From assembly GCA_937916515.1 (NCBI GenBank), contig CALFSX010000306.1, positions 1-64,000 of the forward strand: a DNA stretch of 64,000 bases. Direction: 5' to 3'. The stretch comes from an uncultured Planctomycetaceae bacterium. Its GTDB lineage: Bacteria > Planctomycetota > Planctomycetia > Planctomycetales > Planctomycetaceae. The notes beneath the pieces are model-generated. The model was not told the DNA's origin. It saw only the letters and a list, made by a program, of their open reading frames with translations, and did not search any database. The stretch's first letter is position 1. Each line of letters opens with the position of its first letter. The position numbers and the translations under genes are program-made. Of the stretch, positions 194 through 6,669 are shown in pieces.

Positions 194-541
194 ATGTCCG
201 CTTATGAAGCAATGCCTGATGCGCAGATAGAAGCAATTCTGTGTTCACGGATGGAATCGATTCGATTGAATCGAAACATTACTCAAGCAGATCTCGCCCG
301 AGAAGCAGGCGTGTCCACTCGAACCATTCGCCGCATGGAACAGGGTGAGGGGATTTCGCTGGCGACGTTCATCAGAGTGTTGAAGGCGTTCAAACTATTG
401 GACCGACTGGACCTTCTGCTGCCGCCCGAACAGGTCCAGCCAATCGAACGCGTCCAGAAAGCCGCACGTCGCCGAGAACGCGCATCCGGCAAACGCAAAC
501 GTGATTCCGATAATACCCACTGGACCTGGGGTGACGAATGA
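194..541 (+). CDS. hipB: HipB-like XRE-family antitoxin/repressor
   Basis: A 115-residue DNA-binding protein with an N-terminal helix-turn-helix at about residues 18-60, including NITQADLAREAGVSTRTIRR, which has the recognition-helix pattern of the XRE/Cro family. The C-terminal 30 residues are very basic (KAARRRERASGKRKR). In HipBA modules the antitoxin binds operator DNA as a dimer and holds the HipA kinase inactive. GGGAAG lies 6-8 nt before the ATG and supports the start. The stop codon overlaps the hipA start by 4 nt (ATGA), so the two are translationally coupled. The palindromes just upstream are its likely operators. The basic tail is longer than in E. coli HipB. Confidence 0.85.
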   Translation: MSAYEAMPDAQIEAILCSRMESIRLNRNITQADLAREAGVSTRTIRRMEQGEGISLATFIRVLKAFKLLDRLDLLLPPEQVQPIERVQKAARRRERASGKRKRDSDNTHWTWGDE

Positions 542-1836
542 CGGACGCTCGAGTCATCCTGTGGGGACGCGACATCGCTGCTGTCAGTTGGCTGGAAGAT
601 CGCGGCATCGGCGTGTTTCAGTACGCACCCGAATTCCTGAACAGCGGTATTCAGGTATCACCACTCACCATGCCGTTGCGCGAAGGCACGTTTGAATTTC
701 CTGAACTGTCGCGTGAAACCTTCAAAGGGCTGCCGGGCCTGTTGGCCGAATCTTTGCCGGATAAGTTTGGTAACGCCTTGATCGACACATGGCTTGCTCG
801 CCAGGGGCGAACGCCGGAGTCTTTCAACCCCGTCGAACGCCTTTGCTACATCGGTTCACGCGGCATGGGAGCACTGGAATTTCAACCAACTGTTCTGGGC
901 GCGCCTGAGTCCGAACGGACCATCGACCTGGATGCTCTGGTACGGCTTGCGAATGCCGTGATCAACGAACGGTCCAGTCTCAGCGGGACGTTGTCCGGTG
1001 AAGACGATACTCAGGCCATTCAGGATATTCTGCGAGTCGGAACATCCGCCGGTGGAGCACGAGCAAAAGCCATTCTGGCATGGAATGAAGCGACTGGTGA
1101 ATTCCGATCCGGGCAGGTTCCGCTACTGGATGGCTTCACGCCGTGGCTGGTGAAATTTGATGGCGTTGCCGGCAATCAAGACAAAGAACTGGCGGACCCA
1201 CTGGGCTACGGGCGAATTGAATTCGCGTATTCGCAGATGGCTGTCGCCGCCGGAATCACGATGATGCCTTGCCGGTTGCACGAAGAAAACGGGCGAGCTC
1301 ATTTTATGACTCGACGATTTGATCGAACGCCGGAAGGCAGGAAGCTGCACATGCAGTCGCTGGGATCGATGATGCATTACGACTTCAATCAGCCGACCGC
1401 GTATTCGTACGAACAGGCGATTCAGGCCTGTCTGCGACTTGATTTGCCCATGGAAGATCGAGAACAACAATTTCGTCGAGCCGTCTTTAACGTGCTCGCC
1501 CGCAATCAGGACGATCACGTAAAGAACATCGCTTTCCTGATGAATCGCAAAGGCACGTGGCGACTATCCCCGGCTTTTGATGTCACCTATGCGTACAACC
1601 CAACCGGCGACTGGACCGGTAAACATCAAATGAGTATCAACGGCAAACGGGACCACTTTGACACCGCTGATCTGATCGCTCTAGCGGCCATTGCTGGCAT
1701 CAAAAAGCGAAAGGCCGTAGCTATCAAACTGGAAATTGAAGACGCCCTCGCCCAATGGCCAAAATTTGCTGACAACGCGGACATTGCTCCCGGCCTTCAG
1801 GCACAGATTCAGAAAGCGTTTCGCAGGTTGTCGTGA
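538..1836 (+). CDS. hipA: HipA-family serine/threonine kinase toxin
   Basis: A 432-residue protein with the HipA layout: an N-terminal 'couple_hipA' region, the family motif GSRGMGALEF at about residue 105, a flexible loop GTSAGGARAKA near residue 165, then the kinase core. The catalytic loop RNQDDHVKN (about residues 321-329) and the metal-binding DVTY of SPAFDVTY (about 348) are intact, so the kinase should be active. The best studied HipA phosphorylates glutamyl-tRNA synthetase and halts translation; the target here is unknown. The loop Ser in GTSAGG is the counterpart of the autophosphorylated serine. It overlaps hipB by 4 nt and is presumably neutralised and repressed by it. Confidence 0.9.
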   Translation: MTDARVILWGRDIAAVSWLEDRGIGVFQYAPEFLNSGIQVSPLTMPLREGTFEFPELSRETFKGLPGLLAESLPDKFGNALIDTWLARQGRTPESFNPVERLCYIGSRGMGALEFQPTVLGAPESERTIDLDALVRLANAVINERSSLSGTLSGEDDTQAIQDILRVGTSAGGARAKAILAWNEATGEFRSGQVPLLDGFTPWLVKFDGVAGNQDKELADPLGYGRIEFAYSQMAVAAGITMMPCRLHEENGRAHFMTRRFDRTPEGRKLHMQSLGSMMHYDFNQPTAYSYEQAIQACLRLDLPMEDREQQFRRAVFNVLARNQDDHVKNIAFLMNRKGTWRLSPAFDVTYAYNPTGDWTGKHQMSINGKRDHFDTADLIALAAIAGIKKRKAVAIKLEIEDALAQWPKFADNADIAPGLQAQIQKAFRRLS

Positions 1837-6020: not shown

Positions 6021-6100
6021 CAACCATGAATGGAACGAATGCTACGAATGACATGCTGACTGATGTTTTTCATTCGTGTCATTCGTGAAATTCGTGGTTG
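6021..6100. repeat. Palindromic repeat with ACGAAT periodicity, left copy
   Basis: The left arm 6021-6053 starts CAACCATGAATGGAACGAAT. The right arm at 6068-6100 ends ATTCGTGAAATTCGTGGTTG. They pair at 26 of 33 positions around a 15-nt loop. Each arm holds three GAAT/ATTC blocks about 9 nt apart. A related palindrome lies at 6523-6614. Confidence 0.8.
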
Positions 6101-6111
6101 TTAAGCCTCAG

Positions 6112-6488
6112 TCATCGCACGATGCGTTCCCATTCGAGTCTCGGATGGTGGCCGAAGTTGACCAGCAAGCCAAGGCGATGGCCGGTTGCTTTCAGGTAGT
6201 TGTGAACCTGTGCTCGATGCTCATCGTTGAGCTTGGAGACGGCCTTAATCTCCACGATGATCTTTTCGAAGCAGACAAAGTCCGGCTTTTATGATTGAGT
6301 CAGCTTGTGCCCCTTGTAGCGCAGTTCCAACTCCTGCTGCGCAGTGAACGGGACGGATTGGAGAGCGAGCTCGAGTTTAAGACATTCTTGATACACCGGC
6401 TCCACGAAACCGCTACCTTTTCGTTGTGTACCTCAAAGCATGCACCGATGATTTTGAACGACTCTTCATTGAACAGAATTTCGGTCAT
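6112..6488 (-). pseudogene. GxxExxY / PDDEXK_3-type nuclease-like protein, broken
   Basis: The intact start MTEILFNEESFKIIGACFEV matches the beginning of GxxExxY proteins. A frameshift near 6417-6424 (probably one lost A in an A-run) moves the next part, GSGFVEPVYQECLKLEL, to another frame; this holds the G-x-x-E-x-x-Y signature (GFVEPVY). In that frame a TAA at 6289-6291 stands where a Tyr codon would be expected, between HKLTQS and KPDFV. After the stop the frame continues through KPDFVCFEKIIVEIKAV, which keeps the D...ExK nuclease pattern, to LVNFG and the natural end at 6112. Two lesions make it non-functional unless recoded. The parent family is about 125 residues, as here. Confidence 0.8.
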
Positions 6489-6522
6489 TGGAAACCTCGA
6501 AAAAAATTGCTCGGACGGGAGA

Positions 6523-6614
6523 CAACCACAAATGACACGAATTTAACGAATGGTGCTCGGGCGGAGGTGAATGCCATTGGGTTTTATTCGTGTGATTCGT
6601 TTCATTCGTGGTTG
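6523..6614. repeat. Palindromic repeat with ACGAAT periodicity, right copy
   Basis: The left arm begins CAACCACAAATGACACGAAT (6523 on) and pairs at about 24 of 29 positions with the right arm ending ATTCGTTTCATTCGTGGTTG at 6614, around a G-rich loop of about 33 nt. Termini and internal ACGAAT spacing match the copy at 6021-6100, while the loop is unrelated. Confidence 0.8.
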
Positions 6615-6628
6615 TAAATATCGGCGCA

Positions 6629-6669
6629 ACGAAAAGGGCAAGGTTTGCACCTTGCCCTTTTCTGTTTTT
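6629..6669 (-). terminator. Rho-independent terminator downstream of ppdK
   Basis: The 12-bp stem AAAAGGGCAAGG/CCTTGCCCTTTT closes a short loop about 80 nt after the ppdK stop. Read on the minus strand the stem ends CCCTTTT; on the plus strand it is followed by CTGTTTTTC, so it may work in both directions. Confidence 0.75.

Follow-up and report, generated by a model that had tools for sequence, protein, structure and literature searches.

What kind of genetic unit consists of one short, decayed gene enclosed by two related palindromes? Such an arrangement is found in a stretch of 64,000 nucleotides, hereafter the window, from the genome (G000) of an uncultured Planctomycetaceae bacterium. An earlier note, made from the sequence alone, had guessed that it represents a class of nuclease-linked palindromic elements. 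With several corrections, this guess is supported by the comparisons described here and is likely to be right.

A fossil gene between two palindromes

The features of the locus are listed in Table 1. The earlier note had described two hairpins here with CAACCA/TGGTTG ends in common and unrelated loops, and this held in the coordinates, in the folds and in the comparison of the ends. As DNA, the left palindrome folds at -22.1 kcal/mol (z -6.63) and the right one at -19.3 kcal/mol (z -4.30), and in neither case was any of 200 shuffled sequences as good. Both palindromes start with CAACC and finish with GGTTG, and over the 37-nt right half they are 84% identical. The further claim that only a decayed GxxExxY gene lies between the hairpins also held. 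It is the sole gene recognised there, matching TIGR04256 on the minus strand at 6118-6429 with 120.4 bits (the curated cut-off is 35 bits), and it has both a frameshift, the Met at 6488 being out of frame with the block starting at 6417, and an in-frame TAA at 6289-6291 (frame end, 6112-6114). Among the loci compared, its closest intact relative is L047 of genome G004, with 81% identity over 102 columns. The window most likely holds a decayed copy of a mobile element, in which the gene is dead and two full palindromes are left around it.

Table 1 Positions of the fossil gene, its palindromes and the adjoining inverted repeat in the window
Feature	Position	Strand	Description
Left palindrome (3' side of fossil gene)	6021-6100		Inverted arms of CACGAAT-type units; ends CAACCA/TGGTTG
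GxxExxY (TIGR04256) nuclease-like pseudogene	6112-6488	-	TIGR04256 match, frame reading
Right palindrome (5' side of fossil gene)	6523-6614		Inverted arms of CACGAAT-type units; ends CAACCA/TGGTTG
Perfect terminator-like inverted repeat adjoining ppdK-like gene	6631-6662		14-nt arms, 100%

The perfect inverted repeat lies between the element and a gene that we take, judging from its ORF, to be ppdK-like; it is an outer neighbour, outside the element. In genome G005, a palindrome is seen by eye at about the same distance from the corresponding inverted repeat. No Rfam family was matched in the window at gathering thresholds. Elsewhere in the window (194-1836), two neighbouring ORFs of 115 and 432 aa look by eye like a HipB/HipA-type pair.

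The genome of the window (8.33 Mb) contains further copies. The pattern ACGAATN{1,4}ACGAAT has 33 matches genome-wide, compared with one for the reversed pattern, and solitary ACGAAT palindromes were inspected at four more places. The loop of the left palindrome, GACATGCTGACTGATGTYTTTCATT, is also present in a half palindrome (L011) at G000:C152:35789. Two additional GxxExxY genes, L001 and L002, both have open frames and are flanked by periodic inverted repeats of the CGCAGAG type and the CACAGAT type, respectively, whose sequences are unlike those of the window. A repeat of ∼105 nt (L001:25-127) has dozens of copies in this genome, and its matches in other species of the genus are only weaker.

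Periodic arms, unit sequence and nuclease clade

Across 58 related genomes, 101 matches to TIGR04256 were identified, distributed in 34 genomes. We examined 72 of these planctomycete loci (the remaining 29 were mostly weaker or partial), one of which had flanks that were too short, and gave each a score for its best inverted repeat with one arm in each 250-nt flank of the gene. The median flank score was 18 and 60 of 71 loci reached at least 13, whereas only three of 134 local controls from the same loci did so (95% point, 11; maximum, 15). Mismatched pairs of planctomycete flanks (n=4970) reached 13 in 5% and 17 in 1% of cases, compared with 42 of 71 real pairs at 17 or above; high scores among mismatched pairs occur because the loci have unit classes in common.

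In other collections, a flank score of at least 14 was obtained for 56 of 79 loci, with a maximum of 12 in local controls (n=139) and 95% and 99% points of 15 and 20 for mismatched flank pairs. This sample of 81 loci, two of which had flanks that were too short, comprised one IMG/VR viral contig and 80 genome contigs, the latter being the best 80 of at least 583 confirmed relatives. The 80 contigs do not cover the W clade described below because they were drawn with a single-clade query. They are labelled as Methanosarcinales, Methanothrix, Trichlorobacter, Chloroflexi, Spirochaetota, Bacteroidetes, Verrucomicrobia, Acidobacteria, Cyanobacteria, several proteobacterial classes, Gemmatimonadetes, Nitrospinota and others, archaea being included overall. 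It should be noted that many of these contigs are metagenomic and that their organism labels may be wrong. The comparison shows that gene and arms are linked: GxxExxY genes usually sit between periodic inverted arms, and they do so in many phyla. Random placement of the palindromes relative to the genes was not what we found, and the earlier guess that GxxExxY genes elsewhere are likewise bracketed held once flanks were extracted, with both samples above control levels.

The arms consist of tandem units of the form CRCNRAD, that is, C-[AG]-C-N-[AG]-A-[GTA], with start-to-start distances of 8-12 nt (mode, 9), and the arm ends are often AACC/GGTT. Tandem units were present at 136 of 153 GxxExxY loci, compared with 34 of 282 distal windows. 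The motif was derived from the planctomycete loci; the other-collection loci, which played no part in its definition, had tandem units in 75 of 81 cases. ACGAAT, which had been proposed as the periodic unit, holds only for part of one nuclease clade.

After six of the 153 loci were left out, 147 were usable for an analysis of layout. The commonest layout, found at 91 loci, was arm-gene-arm, in which a single large palindrome carries the gene in its loop. A full palindrome was present on one or both sides at 30 loci and on both sides at only seven, the window included; the two-palindrome architecture therefore failed as a general description. No arm above threshold was detected at 26 loci, so that the same gene without palindromes was found only in a minority. 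Hairpins of the layout-threshold score occurred in 10 of 282 distal windows. IMG/VR contained one relative and PLSDB eight records for each of two queries; by eye, two of three plasmid loci have arms, and none are visible at the Prevotella locus L224.

Individual loci showed additional features. At G046:C1:6957447-6957990, a GxxExxY gene lies between CGCAAAAAAGCACAAAAAGCACAAAA arrays, and near-identical arrays are present at several distant places on the same contig. A 265-residue ORF (L053:930-1724, G013:C85) contains two tandem GxxExxY domains, the second of which looks degenerate by eye in the usual catalytic region. At L118, L128 and L225 the reading frame enters the downstream arm, and the last residues (SSRLR...) are therefore encoded by the repeat.

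With regard to the protein, the AlphaFold model of L047 is a confident single domain (pLDDT 96.6) whose best structural match is SSO0001 (Foldseek E 4.8e-4; VIA Z 9.5, rmsd 3.5 over 98 residues), which we take to be a Cas4 protein; the model is also similar to lambda-type exonucleases. L047, L001 and L002 match both TIGR04256 and PDDEXK_3 (PF13366). Conservation of the catalytic residues is shown by the comparison of 153 proteins: the aspartate is present in all 153, the glutamate of ExK in 147 (the other six have aspartate) and the lysine in 151. Strong purifying selection is likewise shown for the Flavobacterium gene, with a median dN/dS of 0.064 (74 usable of 78 pairs). On the basis of the model, the GxxExxY protein is predicted to be a minimal Cas4/RecB-like PD-(D/E)XK nuclease of ∼125 residues; its nuclease activity is inferred. 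No PDB chain matched the family profile in sequence up to an E value of 1, and no PHROG match was obtained for two members. The Holliday junction resolvase Hjc gave a Z of 6.4, below the Cas4 match and in a range where many folds score alike, and we therefore make no claim of a junction resolvase.

The relationship between unit and protein was analyzed on a tree of the 153 proteins, which was built by a quick method from few columns and in which many forks remain open. Unit position 7 required seven changes on this tree, whereas over 500 shuffles the mean was 21.4 and no value fell below 18. Position 5 required 25 (43.8 when shuffled) and position 2, over all loci, 34 (43.4 when shuffled); in planctomycetes alone, no tree signal was observed for position 2 (17 vs 19.8, with 66 of 500 shuffles as good). 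In the other collections position 7 is G in 74 of 75 loci, which leaves too little variation to compare with the tree there. Clade W (25 rows, SH-aLRT 96) was chosen after the tree had been seen. With this post hoc choice, units ending in A or T were found at 20 of 22 W-clade genes among the planctomycete loci and at one of 39 others (Fisher 7e-13). Twelve genomes have both W and non-W genes, and in ten of them all units match the clade (the exceptions are L120 in G008 and L103 in G010); thus, a genome-wide fashion of repeats is not the explanation. The fossil of the window groups with L047 inside the W clade, and its CACGAAT unit is of the W type, as the clade predicts. The unit sequence tracks the nuclease clade and not the genome. 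Co-inheritance of gene and arms would yield this match as well, without physical recognition.

Gene-less copies and orthologous sites

Dispersed copies were measured by counts of a triple-unit pattern minus a reversed-pattern control, not by a de novo census of palindromes. Genomes with a GxxExxY gene (n=34) had a median of 50 arrays and those without (n=24) a median of 2.5 (MWU p 2e-7; 1.7e-4 after subtraction of four hits per gene). The number of arrays correlated with that of GxxExxY genes (Spearman 0.75; 0.69 as a partial coefficient holding the count of four-helix-bundle genes, a family considered below), whereas given GxxExxY the corresponding value for four-helix-bundle genes was 0.05. 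Since the genomes are related and not independent, p values from such genome counts are descriptive. In the genus of the window, five gene-bearing genomes had 12-85 array hits and three without the gene had 2-5 (controls, 0-4). The comparison shows that gene-less palindromes are abundant mainly where the gene is present. Seven gene-bearing genomes had fewer than 10 arrays, and several genomes without a detected gene were array-rich: G027 (77), G048 (43), and G021, G023, G056 and G012 (11-17). For G027 and G048, recent gene loss, a missed gene or another mover are all possible. The G048 arrays are of the CGCGGAT/CACGGAT type. W-type arrays were commoner in genomes with a known W-clade gene (p 0.006; share test, 0.04), which is only modest support; in this test G005 was left out and genes outside the examined set had no clade assignment. 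In G050, eight solo palindromes have arms that are at least 92% identical and left flanks that are at most 40% identical.

We then compared orthologous sites. At the ppdK site, the window species, G005 and G004 each have a GxxExxY gene or a remnant with palindromes near the 3' end of the gene (by eye), and the units are of the CACGAAT, CACGAAA and CGCAGAG types; the remaining five species of the genus showed neither gene nor palindrome, by eye, in the stretch inspected. At the L001 site, the gene is present in G000 and, broken, in G004. Among gene-less genomes at that site, G001 has a clean solo palindrome, G007 and G002 have decaying ones and G003 has nothing. A Flavobacterium intergenic site was surveyed in a subset of loci from 199 genomes searched. 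All 15 loci examined there for the gene-bearing element carry it, and in 13 of them the 125-codon gene is intact; in other species the site is occupied by solo palindromes that belong to different unit classes and are in part decaying (12 + 13 loci, by eye). A scar with 75 nt between the anchors is found at L283, a decayed remnant at L290 and longer intervals with other sequence in L292-L296, L257 and L269; the GxxExxY motif is also present within the intervals of L257, L269 and L295. At the same site, L294 (G069:C21:186711-187381) has a small ORF that by eye is GIY-YIG-like and lies between ATCCTGAACTAGTTTCAGGAT-type palindromes, possibly a third type of nuclease in a palindrome. In Sphingomonas, a 437-nt element lies between fabD and fabG, which are 464 nt apart, whereas the interval in S. 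paeninsulae is 32 nt.

Presence and absence at orthologous sites are shown by these comparisons. Empty sites in relatives, which the earlier note had looked to for the ends of the element, were found in G003 and S. paeninsulae, beside gene-bearing, solo and scar states. The absence of a target duplication is also shown: none was detected at the boundaries of 91 elements, where the mean longest direct repeat was 1.76 (1.81 in shuffled pairs) and none reached 6. One orthologous site can be occupied by differing unit classes in different species, which is not explained by a simple one-time insertion. Such reuse could possibly reflect one palindrome replacing another.

A proposed element, its rivals and known systems

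Taken together, the likely reading is a mobile element in which the nuclease recognises the periodic arms that belong to it and also sustains copies without a gene. All support for it is comparative, and movement, binding and nuclease action are inferred. The typical intact element would be a large palindrome with a gene for a ∼125-residue GxxExxY nuclease in its loop. The nuclease would bind its own arms at their unit arrays and act on the hairpin or cruciform that these arms form, probably in single-stranded DNA at replication forks; the palindrome would be released or copied into new intergenic places, and loss of the gene would leave solo palindromes that may still be moved in trans. RAYTs are thought to act on hairpins in single-stranded DNA at forks. 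By analogy with them, a route of this kind is the one we prefer, but it is inferred and we hold it tentatively, with rather more doubt than belief. A point against the element reading is that the Flavobacterium gene has remained in place and is strongly constrained by purifying selection; a purely selfish element would not usually behave in this way.

A bolder reading would be that a class of palindromic elements in bacterial phyla and archaea has GxxExxY proteins as its dedicated mobilising nucleases, that these proteins read their own arms through a simple code in unit positions 5 and 7 as set by the protein clade, that S23p genes form a parallel 7-nt class, and that a gene in a periodic palindrome is a general, unnamed mode of mobility distinct from the DDE, HUH, serine/tyrosine recombinase and retroelement routes. 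We find ourselves evenly divided on it. If the element reading is true, a widespread protein family of unknown role would gain a function and many unexplained intergenic palindromes an owner; natural matched pairs of protein and unit would form a data set on DNA choice by a very small nuclease. One could then also test whether a nuclease without known transposase chemistry can drive such an element, and why palindromes at the same intergenic position differ between species.

Three other explanations should be considered. The nuclease gene might be cargo, a passenger or domesticated helper, with an unseen other enzyme reading the arms and moving the palindromes. Linkage alone can give covariation of clade and unit, and arrays are many in some genomes without a detected gene (G048 and G027). 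However, the arms detected are no more than 250 nt from the gene, so that there is little space for anything else, the number of arrays follows that of GxxExxY genes (partial rho 0.69) but not that of four-helix-bundle genes (0.05), and the catalytic residues are conserved; we regard this explanation as unlikely.

Even less probable, and in our view very unlikely, are two further possibilities. One is that the arms act as RNA, either as an antitoxin (type III toxin-antitoxin) or as a processing signal like those of 23S intervening sequences cut by RNase III. In its favour, the arms flank the gene and may be transcribed, and in Coxiella the intervening sequence has a similar layout, an ORF with inverted repeats on either side (PMC4990558). 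Against it, solos are dispersed without the gene, the window has no Rfam match at gathering thresholds, and arm mismatches in 115 loci show no G-U excess over the mirror class (89 vs 87); given this even split between RNA-tolerated and mirror mismatches, the arms appear to be maintained as DNA. The other is homing, in which the nuclease gene enters pre-existing, immobile host palindromes (terminators or binding sites, for example). Most gene-less species examined at the Flavobacterium and L001 sites do indeed retain a palindrome or its remains, but the G050 solos are dispersed with near-identical arms and unrelated flanks, solos are scarce in most gene-less genomes, the site is empty in G003 and S. 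paeninsulae and a scar in G246, and the unit class varies by species at one site.

The mobile-element reading can be compared with systems that have been described. GxxExxY genes in palindromes were not described in the open-access literature that we searched (subscription papers and preprints were outside its scope), nor in the relevant parts of PMC8934634, PMC12306157, PMC5177795, PMC3733652 and PMC4990558. Within that literature, this kind of element is likely to be undescribed. A second gene family may be related in organization: in the same genome set, four-helix-bundle genes (TIGR02436, S23p) had a flank inverted-repeat score of at least 14 in 24 of 30 loci (L063-L092; for example, L083, L080 and L076). 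Their arms have a 7-nt period, with an autocorrelation of 0.65 at lags 7 and 14, whereas GxxExxY arms peak at 0.41 at lag 9, and GxxExxY-type units were near four of the 30 genes. They could possibly represent a parallel class of elements. In the intervening sequences of 23S rRNA with an S23p gene, a short ORF is also enclosed by a single inverted repeat, which folds into a long stem (PMC4990558). This is a likeness to the GxxExxY element, which differs in its protein family, its arm period (∼9 nt, not 7 nt) and its units; in addition, the copy in the window is intergenic, between the ppdK-like gene and another ORF, and lies outside rRNA.

With Cas4, RecB and lambda exonuclease, the GxxExxY protein has in common the predicted fold, the D...ExK residues and an AQLLxYL stretch; such a stretch resembles the Q-x-x-x-Y motif. 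It differs from them in being a single domain of ∼125 residues that is linked to palindromes and, from iron-sulphur Cas4, in having no cysteine among its invariant or nearly invariant columns. The solo palindromes are similar to MITEs, that is, short gene-less inverted-repeat elements dispersed in one genome, but the gene-bearing form has no DDE transposase and target duplication is absent.

The closest parallel that the earlier note had drawn was with REP sequences and RAYT transposases. REP/RAYT systems (REPtrons) and TIRtrons, known in several phyla, combine a small gene that has palindromes or inverted repeats on both sides with many gene-less palindromes (PMC3733652), and GxxExxY elements are like them in having a small bracketed gene and many gene-less palindromes in the same genomes. 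REP/RAYT elements are also not known to make a target duplication, a further likeness. In contrast, the GxxExxY gene is PD-(D/E)XK nuclease-like (TIGR04256/PF13366) and not an HUH tyrosine transposase, the palindrome ends in the window lack a GTAG or CGTC tag, and the arms are tandem units of ∼9 nt that follow the nuclease clade. The proposed resemblance therefore held in function only, and the GxxExxY element is likely to be a functional analogue of REP/RAYT rather than a member of that group.
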